DNA from: Morchella semilibera | Lineage: Eukaryota; Ascomycota; Pezizomycetes; Pezizales; Morchellaceae | DNA: 64,000 nt | Direction of reading: 5' to 3' | Assembly: GCA_009192285.1 (NCBI GenBank) | Contig: CM018606.1 | Location: 1,416,081-1,480,080, forward strand | Shown here: piece after piece, positions 19,870 through 30,897 of the stretch | Layout of the letters: each line of letters opens with the position of its first letter | Position numbering within the stretch: the first letter of the stretch is position 1 | Translations under genes and position numbers: made by a program | The notes under the pieces: model-generated | The model's database searches: none | The model's input: the letters and a program-made list of their open reading frames with translations, nothing else | Told to the model about the DNA's origin: nothing

Positions 19870-22146
19870 TCACAAAGCCATCTCACCAACCCTTCTAACC
19901 ACAACCCCCAGCCCCGCCTGGTGACCATCACAGTCCCACGCCTGCTCAACTGGCACAAACATAACCGCAACTCCCACTACCTTCCCCATCACAGCACCGC
20001 TCCAGGCCTCCGAAAACTCACCCGCCGTCCCCGTCACGGCCGGTATATACACCCTCACCTCCGCGGCATCGAAGCCCATCTCCAGAGCGCCCACCTTCTC
20101 TGCCACCTCGTGCGCCAAAGTCTTACACCTGTCGACCTCTGAAGAGATAGGAAAACAGAGGATGCTCACGCCGCCACCACAGATGCTCCGGCCGTTTGTC
20201 CAGCCACCGTAGTAGACTCCAGAAGAGGTCACGATCCCGCGGCTGGATGTTTCGGCACAGGCCTTGACGCCCCAGTCGTCACTGGACTTGGCGGCGTCGT
20301 TGGTGTCGTCGGTATAGTACTCACCATGCACCCTCTGGATCCACTCTGGGTCGAAGCCCACGCCCGCCCACTCGACCGCGCAGCCACGGGGCAACTCCTC
20401 CACCGAGACAATGAGGAGCGGCGGTCGTATTCCAGTCTCCATCTCTGCAGCCCCATCATCGTCGTCCGCCTCGTCCCCGCCGGCCCCGAAAAGCCCCTTC
20501 CACCCGGGCTCCCCCTTCCAGCCCCTCCAGAGCTCCTTCCACGCCGCTGCCGCCGCCGCAGCGCCCGCAGCGCCAACCACATAGGCCACACACCCTAGCA
20601 GCACCGTCACCTCCGCCGCCGCCGCAACACGCCACATATGCTGGAGTGCTAGAACTGCCTGCTCGTTTATCTCGGGGCGGGTGATGCCGGGATTGAGCAC
20701 ATCCATGCTGCTCGGGACTAGGGGGATCATCCCTGCGAGCGCTGTCCACCCGTCGACACTGATCGCCTGGGAGTAGGGGCCGATATTGGCTGGCGCCCAG
20801 TAGGAGCGCGATTGGACATGTAGGCCCTTGCGTGGAGATTTCCTGCGGAGGTCGACAGTTACGGAGAGGAGGATGTTTGTGTTCTCGGGGAGGCGCGAGC
20901 CAACAGAGACGCAGACGCGGGAGGGGGGGTTTGGGGCCGTGAAGAAGGAGGAGTAGACGCTGTTTATGGCGCCAAAGTCGGTCATGGAGCGGAGGAGGAG
21001 GGTGGTGGAGGTTATGGAGGAGAAAGTGGTGTTGAAGACTTCTAGGTTCTTGGAGAGGATAGTCATTACGGCATGGGTTTCTTCGGAGATGTTTGCAATA
21101 GGAGAGGGACTGGAGATGTTCGTTATGAACACGATGTTTCCGGACTGGGAGGTATGACTGGCGAGGAGATTGGGGCCGCCGGAGAGTGGGGTGTTTTGTG
21201 CCGAATCTAAGGGAGTGACATCAATACTAGTATCAATGATCTCCAGGATACCCGCAAACACCTTATCCCACAGCCCTGGTTTCCTCAGGTTCTTCACACA
21301 CTCCTCTTGTCTGAATATCTCCCCTTCCCTCTCTACAAATCTAGCTCCGAGCACCTTTAGGTGCCCAACCCCGCCCGAGCCCTCTACAATCTCCCTCTGG
21401 TCTTCTCCGACCTCTATCCTCCCTTTCCACCCGGGCCCGTCCACCACGATGGTTTCATACTCACCCCCCTCACCGGCGACATGGACCCCCCACCTCCTAC
21501 TCAGCCCATCCAGCTTCATCCTAACCCCCGGGTCAACCACACTCTTCCACAACCATAGCTCCGCATCCAGCCCCACCGCCGCAACCTTCACAATCCTCGG
21601 CTCTAGTCCCACCTCTGCCATCTCCTCCAGCAGCGCCCCCTGCTGCCGCTGCCACAGGTACGACAGTGACGTCAGGCCCAACCTCGCACACACGCTCTCG
21701 ATCCTCGTGCGCTGATACGTGCTCAGTATGGCGCCTGTACAAACCGCCTTCACGCCCGGATGGTGCGCCATGATGTGTCGCAGCAGCGGCAGCAGGTCCT
21801 CGGTCTCGTCGTCCTCTGTCAGTGCGTACGAGAGGTTCTGGTCGGCGCTGCGGCCGGTGATGGGGTGTCTGTAGAGCGGGAGCGAGAGCGCATTCGGGTA
21901 GAAGGGGAGCAGGGCGTGCCCAACTGTCTGGTACATGAAGGAGTCGAGCTCATCGGGGGTGTCTGGTGTCGGTGAGACGAACGTGCGGGGGGCGGTCGTA
22001 GGGAGGATGGTGGTAATGGCGGTGGGTGCGCCGGGGGTGGGCGGGTGTAGGTTTGCGAGGGCTACTATGTGGTGGCCGTTTGAGATGGTATGGAGGAGAG
22101 AAAAGAAGGAATCTTTGCCTCCGGAGATGAGGGCGACGGTCTCCAT
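19870..22146 (-). CDS. dph6: Diphthine-ammonia ligase with Rid domains
   Basis: Catalyses the last step of diphthamide formation on elongation factor 2, amidating diphthine with ATP and ammonium in the cytosol. A single open frame of 758 residues without introns, unlike most neighbours. Residues 1-240 form the ATP-pyrophosphatase (PP-loop) domain: SGGKDS at 8-13, AVCTGAILSTYQRTRIE at 135-151, and the family motif GEGGEYET at 225-232. Two YjgF/Rid-type domains follow, roughly 305-435 (VFITNISSPSP) and 455-740 (YWAPANIGPYSQAISVDGW), the second interrupted by an Ala- and Asp-rich insertion. This PP-loop plus two Rid layout is that of yeast Dph6 (YLR143W) and other fungal orthologues. What the Rid part does in this enzyme is not shown by sequence. 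Codon third positions are strongly GC in several stretches, which creates long shadow frames on the opposite strand. Start and stop are unambiguous. Confidence 0.95.
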   Translation of the reverse strand: METVALISGGKDSFFSLLHTISNGHHIVALANLHPPTPGAPTAITTILPTTAPRTFVSPTPDTPDELDSFMYQTVGHALLPFYPNALSLPLYRHPITGRSADQNLSYALTEDDETEDLLPLLRHIMAHHPGVKAVCTGAILSTYQRTRIESVCARLGLTSLSYLWQRQQGALLEEMAEVGLEPRIVKVAAVGLDAELWLWKSVVDPGVRMKLDGLSRRWGVHVAGEGGEYETIVVDGPGWKGRIEVGEDQREIVEGSGGVGHLKVLGARFVEREGEIFRQEECVKNLRKPGLWDKVFAGILEIIDTSIDVTPLDSAQNTPLSGGPNLLASHTSQSGNIVFITNISSPSPIANISEETHAVMTILSKNLEVFNTTFSSITSTTLLLRSMTDFGAINSVYSSFFTAPNPPSRVCVSVGSRLPENTNILLSVTVDLRRKSPRKGLHVQSRSYWAPANIGPYSQAISVDGWTALAGMIPLVPSSMDVLNPGITRPEINEQAVLALQHMWRVAAAAEVTVLLGCVAYVVGAAGAAAAAAAWKELWRGWKGEPGWKGLFGAGGDEADDDDGAAEMETGIRPPLLIVSVEELPRGCAVEWAGVGFDPEWIQRVHGEYYTDDTNDAAKSSDDWGVKACAETSSRGIVTSSGVYYGGWTNGRSICGGGVSILCFPISSEVDRCKTLAHEVAEKVGALEMGFDAAEVRVYIPAVTGTAGEFSEAWSGAVMGKVVGVAVMFVPVEQAWDCDGHQAGLGVVVRRVGEMAL

Positions 22147-24884: not shown

Positions 24885-26887
24885 TCAAAAGCCAAAAAAA
24901 TCTTGTATGCCAACCACCCGCAAGCCGGGACGCAGGCTAGCGCACCCAGTGCACCTCAACACGCCCCAAACCTTGATGATTTTTAGTTCTTTACAGCTAT
25001 TCGACAAGTCCTCTAAAACTTTGTCATTGACAGCTCCAATAAAGCCCAAATCAATCTCCTCTAGTCTCCCAAGCCCCCTCCCAAGAGCTCCCAATCCAAT
25101 ATCCGTCAGCTTCCCACAGGAGTTGAGATTAAGAACCTCCAAATTGGTCCCGGAGTGGCCAAGAATGGCGTGGAGAGCTTCATCAGACAGCTCGATGACT
25201 CGCGAAACGTTCAAGTGTGAGAGACCCGAATTCACATTCCAGTTTGTGAACAGCGCAGCCACGCCCTGATTGGAAAATAACTCGCTGTCCTCTAGCGTTA
25301 GTATTTGGAGCCGCGTGCAACAAGCATGGATCGACCCCAGGACTTCATCGGTGAGCTCCTGGCAGCGAGTGAGATTGAGCTCCTTCAATCCAGACCCAAC
25401 GGAATTTAGGATATCAGCAATAGCTGCATCACTGACTTCGCCACCGGGATTTGAAATCTCGAGGACTTCGAGCTTGGTTAGGCCTGTAAGGAGACGTGCC
25501 GAACCGTCGCCGAACCTGTTGAGGTCGGAGAGACGGAGCTCTGTGAGATTGGGGCAGTTATCGACGATAGACTCAATGACAGAGGGGGTGATGCGCGCAG
25601 TGTCGGTGAGTTTGAGGCTTGTAAGGCGGTGGCCGGCTAGTTGAAAGAAGTTTTGATAGCATTCAGCTGTGATGAGGAAGGGGCCGCCAAGGTGGAGAGA
25701 GTTCAGGGAATGCAGCTGGTGCGCGTAGTAGGTGAGGACTGTGTCGTTGATGTTACCACAGAAGGAGAGTGAGAGGTGACGGAGGGTAGGAACGATGGAA
25801 GCAATTGATTGGAGCTCATTAGCTTCGATTTCTAGGCTATGTTAGAGTTGGGTTCTAATACATTGGAGGTGTAATGGTTGTAATTGTAAGATAGTAGACG
25901 AAAACGTACTGGAGCAATCATAAATATTTAGTTTAGTGCTTCCTGGATCTAGGAATAGCTTTATGGTATTGTTATTGAGCCTACGGTTTCGGGCAATAAT
26001 CTGGCAGATAAGATCCATGTTCATTGCCCCAATATCACCGAGGGCTTCAACGTCGTCAATGTATTTAGCAACAAGCTACACCGAATTAGCAGCCCATAGC
26101 AACAAGTCTCTCAAGCCAGGTGTGCTCACGTTGATACACAGCTCCCTCAGAGTCTTCGGTCCCCCTATTTTTCCATCAAGAATGTTTTTAGCACCCTCCT
26201 TCTTTCCCTTCTTGGCCACAACCCTCTTTTTCTTCTCAGTCTTCTTAGTACCCGCGTCCCGTGCTCCACATGCATTACATAGTAAGCCGTCGCCATCTGG
26301 GCCATTACGGGAGTATGCTGTCACGGTGAAACGACACTCACACTCCGCGCAGAATGAAATCTGCCCGGGGACTGATACCGCCTTTGTTCCCCAGCCACCA
26401 TTTTTTCGTTTTTTAGTGGCCGCAGCACCCGAAGAGGGCTGCTCCGTGGAGGGACCAGCTTCGCTCTCAGGCTGCCCACGACGGCGGCGAGTAGTTGGGG
26501 CTGGGGCTGGGGCTGGGGCTGGGGATGTAACTCGATTTTCGGCTTCCGCAGCTTCAGCTATCGCGGCTTCAGCAGCTTCGGCGCGTTCAAGTGCACGACG
26601 GCGAATATCAGCGGCATTTATTCCTTTGTCCTTTGGTGGGGTCAGTGAATGCAGTTTCTAATACTTTGAAGCTTTCAAAATCCCGATTTCTGGGAAGTAA
26701 CGTACTCGCAGGAATTCTGTCATTGCCGAATTTCTGGAAAGCAAAAATCAGCGTCATATTTAGCCATATTTGGTTGAAACGTTGAAACTTACGGCCCACG
26801 CACGCCATTGCCTCCTCTGTTTCGTCTGGACCTGATAATTTTTTAGCTTAATTAAGGTTATTTCTGTAGAAACGGTCATATTTACAT
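24885..26887 (-). CDS. rad7: Rad7, nucleotide excision repair LRR protein
   Basis: Partner of Rad16 in the global-genome repair complex, acting on damaged, non-transcribed chromatin; Rad7 also joins an elongin C/cullin ligase in yeast. Six exons (26887-26886, 26831-26793, 26733-26706, 26630-26130, 26075-25910, 25831-24885) give about 560 residues. The N-terminus reads MSRRNRGG...RGPNSAMTEFLRDKGINAADI, as expected for fungal Rad7. An Ala/Pro-rich linker leads to two CxxC pairs (FCAEC ... LLCNACG), a putative zinc finger. From about residue 210 come leucine-rich repeats of the cysteine-containing type (LNIYDCS, LRHLSLSFCG, LKELNLTRCQELTD, LEVLNLNSCGKLTD), ending IKVWGVLRC...RVVGIQ. The start codon appears split as AT|G by a 54-nt first intron (26832-26885), since no ATG precedes the conserved SRRNR in frame within the exon. 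The neighbour across 1.0 kb is rad16, in the opposite direction. Confidence 0.92.
26832..26885 (-). other. Intron splitting the rad7 start codon
   Basis: The putative donor GTAAAT follows AT, and TTATCAG precedes GTCCAGACG, so splicing builds ATG TCC AGA CGA. The following exons, in the same frame, give the conserved Rad7 N-terminus. The donor is weak, so a slightly different first exon is possible. Confidence 0.6.
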
Positions 26888-27887
26888 TGTCTGTGTGGTT
26901 TGTGACCTAAGATTTGATGGCTTTGTGTGATTTCTGTGGTGGAGATTCTAAGAGACTAAGAGAGAGACCTGGGGTGGAAGTGAAGTGAGAGTTCCGGAGC
27001 CGTGTGTACCTCTAACCTAAGCACTACCATCTGTATGGCATTCTGAAGAACGCGCAGAACTACGGATAACGGAGCGTGTAAAGTGGCTGCAGCACCCTGC
27101 AGTGGCAATTGAAATCTCAATCCCTGCCGAATCCAGGGAAATATAATACGATCCTTCTAGCCCAAACAGTTCATCCCGATACCCACGGAGAATCGACTAG
27201 CAAACTGCCAAGGCGGGAAAACACGAAGCAGGAGTCATAACGCGTAAAGTGCTCCACAAACAACCGGGGGAAGACGCGTTTTTTTTTTCTCCGTCTGCTT
27301 ATCGCCACTCGCGAAAACCCGCAGATGCAGTATACAGATAGCTCCGTATAACAAAAGTTCGAGGGGGCCACAGCAAGGTCGGGGTGGTCTTATCTGATCT
27401 ATACATAGTAATTTCTTTAAAGAAAGTTTTTCTCTGGTTCCCTCGACGCCGAGGACCTTGTAATCATTACCTGCGATTCTGCTGAGACAATATCCCTTTG
27501 TATTCTTGGCTGCCTTTCTCCCTCCTTCTCCAGGAACTCCCCCCACCCCCCTCTCCATCTCTGCACTGTCACTTCCTTATCAGACCACTTCGCCTTGAAA
27601 GTCGTCTTGAAAGTACTCCTTACCTACTTTCCTTCCCTCTTTGTCGTATAACACTTTAGTTACAAACAATCCCTTATATAAGCTTCCGCGGCGGAATTCC
27701 TTGTTCTCTGTAGAGATCTGGAAAACTTCATTTGAGCCCCATTCATTTGTATGTTTCAATGAAACAAGGCTACACACGAGCTTGTAATTTCTGACTACAA
27801 CCCCCAGATCCTTCAGTTGTAGTAAACTGCAGTCACAATAACTAGAGCACTCACATCCGTGCGGAAAAATAGACCATCACAATAAAG
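26888..27887. promoter_or_regulatory. Shared upstream region of rad7 and rad16
   Basis: The 1.0 kb between the two divergent start codons. ORFs inside are short and have no domain. It should hold both promoters; I could not assign a specific damage-response site. Confidence 0.6.
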
Positions 27888-30800
27888 ATGGTTACTCTTC
27901 GTTCCTGTAAGTTTTAATTTATCAATTATGAGGCAACTCGCTGAATTTCCTTTCTAGCAGCTCGAATTGCAACTGCTGCTTCGACAATTAAGGCTGTTAC
28001 ACCGTCTAAAGCTGCCGCTACCACTACTACAACCACGCGTAAGCGCGCCCACACATCTGATTCGGAGGGGGATTCAACCAACGAAACTATTTTGGTCTCT
28101 AAGCTTCCCGCGAAGCGTACAAGGAAGGGCGTTAGGACTGAAATTGAGGCCAGCAGTAAAGTCAAAATTGGGAGCTCATCGACATCCACAGCCAATTCGT
28201 ATGCAAATTCTCTTGACGGTGGAGACGCAGATACACCTGCTACTTCTCAGGGCTCCAGAAGTAGCACTGTCTCCTCTAGACCTTCAAAAGGGAAGGGGAA
28301 GGAGGTAGCTGTTTCTACAGCTACTAGAAGAACTAGACTCTCAGCTACCAGGGTTGAGGTTGCGGATTCTCAAGAAGAAGATGAAGGTCTGGTGTATGAA
28401 GCAGCAGTTAAGAGTGAATCTCCGGAAGAGAGTGAACTCTCTGTGCCTGAAGACGACGAAGATGACAGCCTAGACGAAGATTTCAATGAATCCGTTCCTC
28501 CCGTCGGAGGTAAAGGTAAAGGCAAAGCTAAAGCCAAACCTCCAGCAAAGCCAGCCCGCCCCTCTAGAAACAGAGCCGCAAATAGAGGAGGAACCATCTC
28601 TTCAAGCGTCATTCCCGTAGGTCTAACGGAAGTCCCGGACATCACGGAAGGCGAAGAAAGTGCCATCACCTCAGACACCAGTTTTACTGATAGCGATCTT
28701 TCGGATTCCTATGCAGCCCTCGTGGATGATTCTGATGAAGAAGAGGCAAGGCCACGGGCTACCCAGCCCAATGTGCAAACTATAGGACCATACCAACCTC
28801 TTATACTCCCTAGAAATAGAAGGAGGCCTAATTTCCCTGGCAGGACCAGGGAGGATAATATTCGCAGCCAGCTCATGCATTGGCATCCAGAGCTCTGTAC
28901 TATTTGGGATGAGCTTGATCAACGTCCCAAGATTGCTGTTGCAAAGGCTACGCAGCCTGACGGGTTATCATTGACCATGCTACCCTTCCAGTTGGAGGGC
29001 CTTAATTGGCTCCGGGCTCAAGAACAAACTATCTTCAAAGGCGGTATTCTTGCTGATGAGATGGGCATGGGTAAGACCATCCAGACAATTGGTTTACTCA
29101 TGTCCGAGCCTCGTGCAAAGCCAAACTTGGTTATAGCTCCGACAGTTGCGCTAGTTCAGTGGGAGAACGAGATCAAGAAACATACTAATAACGCGTTGAC
29201 CGTGATCTCATACCACGGTGCGAACAGGGAGGAAGACCCTGAGGTATTAGCTCAGGCCGATGTGATAATGACTACCTACAGTGTTTTGGAGAGCATTTAT
29301 AGGAAGCAGACAACAGGCTTTAAGAGGAAGGATGGAATATACAAGCAGGATAGCCCTATCCACATGTTAAAATTCCATAGGGTCATACTCGACGAGGCGC
29401 ACAATATTAAAGTATGGCGAACTTACCCCATTAAATTTGTTAAAATTGTGCATAACTGACCATAATAGGACCGATCGAGTAAATCCGCGAAGGCGGCTTT
29501 TGCGCTGCAGACAAAGTACAAGCTCTGTCTTTCTGGAACACCGCTCCAGAATCGCATCGGAGAGCTTTTCTCTCTTCTCCGATTTCTCGAGGCAGATCCA
29601 TTCAGTTACTACTATTGCCGCAACTGCACTTGCAAGTCGTTGAACTGGAGGTTTAAGGCTAATCGTGGCTGCGACGACTGCGGGCATAGTCCAATGCACC
29701 ATCTTTGTCTTTTCAACCACGAGTTGCTCAAGCCAATCCAGACTTACGGGAATGAGGGACGCGGCAAGGCTGCCTTTCAGAAGCTGCAAATTCTGCTGAA
29801 GCACATAATGCTCCGACGTACAAAGGAGGAGCGTGCTGATGATCTTGGACTGCCGCCGAAAATCGTGAAGGTCAGGCGAGATTACTTCAATGAGGAGGAA
29901 CTTGATGTCTATGATTCGATATACGGCGATTCAAAGAGGAAGTTCAACACATATGTTGCACATGGTGTCGTCTTGGTAAATTCCTTTCTTATCTTGTTTC
30001 CGGCAGCACTCTAATTTCCCACCGTAGAACAATTATGCAAATATCTTCACTCTCATCACTCGTATGCGCCAACTTGCGGATCATCCTGATCTTGTACTCA
30101 AGAAGGAAGCTCTTACTGGCCAGAACACTCTCGTCTGTTCTCTGTGCGACGATGAAGCTGAGGATGCTATCAAAAGTAAATGTCACCACACATTCTGCCG
30201 AATGTGTGTACATGAATACATTTCTGGTTTTGATGGCAAATCAAACCCCGATTGTCCCAAGTGTCATATCACGTTGAATATTGATCTTACCGCACCCGCA
30301 ATTGAGGTTGATGAGGGGACAATTGTCAAAAAGAACTCCATCATCAATCGCATCGACATGAGTCAGTGGCATAGTTCGACTAAGATCGAGGCCCTAGTCG
30401 AAGAGCTCTACAAGCTAAGGAGTCAAAACCACACTATCAAGTCCATCGTATTCTCCCAGTTCACGTCCATGCTTCAGTTAGTAGAATGGAGGCTGCGCAA
30501 GGCCGGTTTCCAGACCGCGATGTTAGAGGGCAGCATGACCCCCAGCCAGCGCAACGCCACCATCCAGCACTTTATGGAGAACGTGGAGACCACGGTCTTC
30601 CTTGTCTCTCTCAAGGCTGGAGGTGTTGCACTGAATCTTATCGAGGCGTCCCAGGTGTTTATCATGGACCCGTGGTGGAATCCGTCAGTGGAATGGCAGG
30701 CCGCTGACAGGATCCATCGTATTGGCCAAACAAGGGCTTGTAAGGTCACTAGGCTGATCATTGAGGACAGCATTGAATCCCGGATCTTAGACTTGCAGGA

Positions 30801-30897
30801 GAAGAAGGCGAGGATGATACATGCCACGGTGGGCGGTGATCAGGGTGCAATGGATAAGCTGACACCTGCGGATATGCAGTTTCTGTTCCAGAATTAG
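27888..30897 (+). CDS. rad16: Rad16, SNF2-type ATPase with RING finger
   Basis: DNA-dependent ATPase that with Rad7 scans chromatin and generates the torsion needed for excision of lesions in non-transcribed DNA. Four exons (27888-27906, 27958-29411, 29469-29975, 30028-30897) give about 949 residues. The first 230 residues are Ser/Lys/Asp/Glu-rich and disordered. Helicase motif I is in [13 protein letters not shown] near residue 371, motif II is DEAH near 483, and [11 protein letters not shown], then [16 protein letters not shown], follow. A C3HC4 RING (CSLC ... CHHTFCRMC ... CPKC) sits at about 697-740 between the two helicase lobes, the hallmark of the Rad16/Rad5 class. The C-terminal lobe has [22 protein letters not shown] and DRIHRIGQ, ending ADMQFLFQN. 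Intron 1 ends in TAGCAG, a tandem acceptor that adds or omits one Ala. Rad16 rather than Rad5 because there is no HIRAN domain and the RING-proximal sequence and C-terminus are Rad16-like. Confidence 0.97.
27952..27960 (+). other. NAGNAG tandem splice acceptor of rad16 intron 1
   Basis: TTCTAGCAG offers AG at 27956-27957 and at 27959-27960. Both keep the frame: the first yields Ser-Ala-Arg, the second Ser-Arg. Tandem acceptors of this sort commonly give mixed products. Confidence 0.6.

Follow-up and report, generated by a model that had tools for sequence, protein, structure and literature searches.

The divergent rad7-rad16 gene pair of Morchella semilibera, with a pair of MluI boxes in its shared upstream region

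Introduction

In yeast, Rad7, a leucine-rich repeat (LRR) adaptor, and Rad16, a SNF2-RING protein that is both an ATPase and an E3, constitute the complex that serves global-genome nucleotide excision repair.

That the two genes can be kept together as neighbours was described by Davila Lopez, Martinez Guerra and Samuelsson in 2010 (PMC2871058), whose Table 1 lists RAD16/RAD7 as an evolutionarily conserved gene pair. The row for this pair gives 14 organisms, 14 pairs, a GS2 GO score of 0.91 and the phyla Fp and Ft, and the passage of text that goes with it names the Pezizomycotina. The section in which the pair appears deals with divergent transcription and calls this pair functionally linked, and the abstract of that paper proposes that conserved pairs are kept through relatedness in transcription and/or function.

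Here we analyse a window of 64,000 nucleotides from the ascomycete Morchella semilibera (contig CM018606.1, positions 1,416,081 to 1,480,080), in which rad7 and rad16 are found head to head. A sequence-only reading of this DNA had presented the linkage as a new candidate functional cluster, with a shared promoter that might balance the two products. The linkage and the functional sense given to it were right; its novelty does not hold, since RAD16/RAD7 already stands in Table 1 of the 2010 paper (PMC2871058), and to call two genes a “functional cluster” is to put it strongly. The rad7-rad16 linkage has thus been known since 2010 and the locus described here is a further instance, to which the present analysis adds a lead in the form of two MluI boxes and an apparent split start codon in rad7. 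The explanation that we prefer, and to which we assign a probability of about 0.6, is that this is an instance of the ascomycete divergent RAD7-RAD16 pair whose linkage is kept by common upstream elements, the candidate being the MluI boxes together with an Mbp1-type factor.

The rad7 and rad16 genes and their products

Manual splicing yields complete reading frames for both genes, which are adjacent and divergent, with rad7 on the minus strand (24885-26887) and rad16 on the plus strand (27888-30897). All eight introns start with GT, end with AG and measure between 48 and 78 bp; such short introns, like the gene content of the window, are of fungal type. The spacing of 1.0 kb between the start codons, first read from the unspliced sequence together with the divergent order, is confirmed by the spliced models and amounts to exactly 1,000 bp (26888-27887, 46 % GC). 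The DNA from 26500 to 28300 matches itself alone in the genome (56.76 Mb, 23 contigs) and is hence single copy. As regards the assembly as a whole, the contig pairs C9/C10, C12/C13 and C21/C22 show near-identical matches at almost equal coordinates, which suggests retained haplotypes or a duplicated assembly. On C4, the contig that carries rad7 and rad16, the region tested is without a second copy.

The rad7 model comprises six exons on the minus strand (26886-26887, 26793-26831, 26706-26733, 26130-26657, 25910-26075 and 24885-25831) and encodes a protein of 569 aa. Residues 120-155 correspond to a treble-clef zinc finger (Pfam zf_Tbcl_Rhp7, PF23550; E 1.1e-16, 60.5 bits for a cut-off of 27), and residues 209-564 (356 residues) match the structure of yeast RAD7 (5zb2_A, E 2.7e-43), that is, an LRR body. 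The structure matches that rank next are F-box/LRR proteins, with E 4.9e-16 or weaker. The protein thus carries both of the features looked for in a Rad7, an N-terminal zinc finger of the Rhp7 type and an LRR body homologous to that of yeast Rad7. It is encoded by a single copy gene, the one further match in the genome having E 3.7e-4. Close to rad7, a single open reading frame (ORF) on the same minus strand (19870-22146) codes for a diphthamide synthase with Diphthami_syn_2 and L-PSP domains.

The start codon of rad7 appears to be split by the first intron, as AT^G. This intron (26832-26885, minus strand) is 54 bp long and has the ends GTAAAT...ATTATCAG; once it is excised, AT and G come together and the message begins its frame with ATG TCC AGA. 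When the frame of exon 2 (N-terminus SRRNRGGNGVRGP) is followed upstream, a stop is reached without any ATG being encountered. A message that retains intron 1 would read AUG-UAA at once and, if the split start codon is real, intron retention could act as a post-transcriptional off-switch for Rad7.

The rad16 model has four exons on the plus strand (27888-27906, 27958-29411, 29469-29975 and 30028-30897) and encodes 949 aa. In the Pfam scan, the domains follow each other in the order SNF2-rel_dom (350-682, 4.4e-59), zf-C3HC4 (697-739, 3.2e-07) and Helicase_C (779-893, 4.8e-21), so that the protein has the architecture sought in Rad16, a SNF2 ATPase with a RING finger placed between its two helicase lobes. 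Its best structure match is Rad5, and no Rad16 figures among the best 60 of the 94 matches. Sequence features that we take to be of the Rad16 type were recognised in the 949-aa protein. Its probable assignment to Rad16 and not to a paralogue is based partly on these features, and further on the Rad7 neighbour and on the published pair. In the genome itself, a 553-aa part of Rad16 finds its best exon at this locus (654 bits), followed by a place elsewhere with 113 bits (40 %), so that rad16, like rad7, is single copy. A 608-aa part, searched against bacterial and archaeal contigs, gave segments of 49 % identity at most; of its 130 relatives there, the best 80 all bear bacterial titles. Two loci (27 %) were obtained from viral contigs. 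Since no fungal contig with Rad16 came up either in the bacterial/archaeal scan (best 80 of 130 relatives) or in the viral one, the conservation of the linkage rests on published papers.

Conservation of the linkage

In Fusarium graminearum, RAD16 and RAD7 bear the consecutive numbers FGSG_05904 and FGSG_05905 and both are hub genes of one H2O2-responsive co-expression module (PMC10581207). RAD16 and RAD7 of Magnaporthe oryzae are likewise consecutive (MGG_07014 and MGG_07015) and both are differentially expressed in a MoRph1 deletion mutant (PMC13207933). In the two fungi, consecutive locus numbers imply adjacency and leave orientation aside. Through the common module, co-expression of RAD7 and RAD16 is supported in another fungus, F. 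graminearum, which lends indirect support to shared transcription control of the pair. A study on B. bassiana states that filamentous ascomycetes with Rad16A/B yielded no homologue of Rad7 (PMC11205155). Taken generally, this statement has the Rad7 described here, FGSG_05905 and MGG_07015 speaking against it.

A neighbourhood due to chance and peculiar to the M. semilibera genome might come to mind, divergent gene neighbours about 1 kb apart being common in fungi. We reject it as extremely improbable in view of the same pair in 14 organisms (PMC2871058) and of the consecutive locus numbers in F. graminearum and M. oryzae (PMC10581207, PMC13207933).

The linkage could also be inherited passively: in an old pair with short spacing, breaks would damage two promoters and would rarely be fixed, with no need for coordinated control. 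Although highly conserved pairs, in particular those of fungi, have short intergenic distances and many of the pairs in Table 1 have low or zero GO-similarity scores (PMC2871058), RAD7 and RAD16 are partners of one complex with a GS2 score of 0.91 in the same table, and they are hubs of a single F. graminearum module (PMC10581207). We consider passive inheritance unlikely and return to linkage kept by common upstream elements, for which the region between the two genes provides a candidate.

The shared upstream region

The shared region contains the MluI cell-cycle box ACGCGT twice, at 27240-27245 and 27274-27279, 34 bp apart, the motif having been chosen after inspection. The boxes are located nearer to rad7, 353 bp from its start and 609 bp from that of rad16. 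Two such boxes in the shared region are what is looked for in a gene regulated by MBF through MCB elements. Further candidate motifs of the region are an SCB-like CGCGAAA at 27310, an ACGCG core at 27050, which is the third there, the word CCCCT, present twice, and an E2F-like word at 27220. Neither PACE, CCAAT, TATAAA nor an AP-1-like pattern was found between 26888 and 27887. An ORF of 107 codons that starts with ATG (27235-27558, minus strand) lies within the shared region and overlaps both MluI boxes; it is probably spurious.

Genome-wide, 42 pairs of ACGCGT with a spacing of 10-40 bases are present in 56.8 Mb (7.4e-4 per kb). The reversed word forms 104 such pairs, compared to 42 for ACGCGT, and about 27 ACGCGT pairs are expected from the single-site rate of the window. 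ACGCGT pairs as such are not over-represented; many must therefore have arisen by chance, and the one between rad7 and rad16 could be among them. This observation, together with the unequal distances of the boxes from the two genes (353 bp versus 609 bp), is in favour of a scenario in which rad7 and rad16 are co-expressed via separate elements near each gene, for instance within a general DNA-damage response, the ACGCGT boxes being fortuitous or relevant to a single gene. What makes this scenario doubtful in our eyes is the nature of the genes around the other box pairs: replication or repair functions are encoded by 11 of 53 ORFs situated across or downstream of them, but by 1 of 32 among those oriented the other way.

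This comparison is based on 37 sites, obtained from the 42 by removing four copies on the near-identical contigs C10 and C13 as well as the rad7-rad16 site, and viewed in stretches of 3 kb (14 sites) or 5 kb (23 sites). ORFs were defined from stop to stop, without overlap and longest first, and were sorted by position according to a rule; all 85 of at least 120 aa were scanned with Pfam, and five shorter ones reading away from a site were scanned too and left out of the counts. With the label “replication/repair” given after the matches had been seen and with orientation known, genes of this kind account for 8 of the 43 ORFs that read away from the site, 3 of the 10 that lie across it and 1 of the 32 that read towards it. 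For across and away together against towards (11/53 versus 1/32), the one-sided Fisher value is 0.021, and for away alone (8/43 versus 1/32) it is 0.041. Restricting the count to ORFs recognised by Pfam gives 11/23 versus 1/11 (Fisher 0.030) and, for away alone, 8/19 versus 1/11 (0.065). Expressed per site, 11 of the 37 have a replication/repair gene across or downstream. An earlier set of 60 hand-picked ORFs had given 9 such genes among 40 “away” and none among 20 “towards” (Fisher 0.018), 4 of those 40 actually lying across the site; rule-based sorting brought in 30 more ORFs and added an Mgs1/RarA-like gene (away), a Swi3-like gene (across) and a MAGE/Nse3-like gene (towards).

The replication/repair genes reading away from a box pair encode MCM2, MCM7, RPA1, Pol32/Cdc27, the small subunit of primase, Ctf18, Ku80 and the Mgs1/RarA-like ATPase, and those across a site Msh3, Eco1/ESCO and a weak match to the fork-protection protein Swi3 (E 1.9e-6). 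The only one reading towards a site is a MAGE-domain gene, which we take to be Nse3-like. The other away or across ORFs recognised by Pfam correspond to PEX1, EB1, Npa1, RICTOR, uricase, NUP159/214, BRAP2 (with an adjoining zf-UBP exon), a JmjC protein, a NACHT protein (with a GPIID_WHD exon at the same site) and an Obg GTPase, and 30 of the 53 away or across ORFs have no Pfam match at E 1e-4. With moderate confidence, the positions of box pairs can be called informative about gene function, and the double ACGCGT boxes near replication and repair genes look like an apparent MBF regulon of M. semilibera.

A factor of the Mbp1 type, which might read such boxes, is encoded in the genome. KilA-N has one match, in an exon that matches the MBP1 structure 1bm8 (E 3e-24) and is followed by an ankyrin-repeat exon matching SWI6 (1sw6, E 2.7e-40). 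Moreover, Gasch et al. (2004) report that MCB is enriched in the G1-phase genes of all species compared (PMC526180). A narrow search of the open-licence literature retrieved no paper that combines four of the five names rad16, rad7, MBF, Mbp1 and MCB. MBF control of the two genes is considered plausible in view of the boxes, the association of box pairs with certain genes, the Mbp1-type factor and the MCB enrichment.

How common upstream elements might keep the linkage can be pictured as follows. Transcription of rad7 and rad16 proceeds outward from a single 1-kb region, and one set of upstream elements driving both genes is the most likely reason for which the linkage persists. The best candidate element is the MluI box pair, which would be read by an Mbp1-type factor and would thereby bring rad7 and rad16 under G1/S and replication-stress control, alongside other replication and repair genes. 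We infer an effect of the boxes on either gene, and likewise that it is shared control which conserves the linkage. A more far-reaching proposal holds that rad7 and rad16 are served by a single bidirectional promoter, a target of MBF, with the central double MluI box raising both subunits at G1/S and under replication stress, and that in addition the start of Rad7 is assembled by splicing alone. This proposal is tentative and on balance improbable; if it were true, lesion recognition would be tied to replication.

Comparison with known systems

S. cerevisiae, whose solved Rad7 protein is matched by the Rad7 described here, keeps the same complex without linkage, RAD7 and RAD16 being on different chromosomes (YJR052W and YBR114W), which counts against the explanation that we prefer. 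The fission yeast genes rhp7 and rhp16, reportedly dealt with by Lombaerts and colleagues in 1999 (a paper cited in PMC10454142), are the orthologues of rad7 and rad16, and we take them to be adjacent and divergent (SPCC330.02 and SPCC330.01c). In the relevant portion of another paper, rhp7 is listed beside SPCC330 genes, rhp16 being absent from that text (PMC2659443).

As for the MBF/MCB regulon, in which Mbp1 acts with ACGCGT upstream of G1/S genes, the likeness consists in the box pairs near MCM2, MCM7, RPA1, primase, Ctf18 and others and in the Mbp1-like gene, whereas the membership of rad7 and rad16 is a predicted one. Among the closest described systems is the RAD16/RAD7 pair of PMC2871058. 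It concerns the same two genes in other genomes; its divergence is given by the section in which it is placed, its own row being without orientation, and the passages on it give no promoter elements. Like that pair, the locus of M. semilibera is an instance of partners whose genes have remained neighbours through long fungal evolution, for which the paired MluI boxes would offer a concrete element that could explain why.
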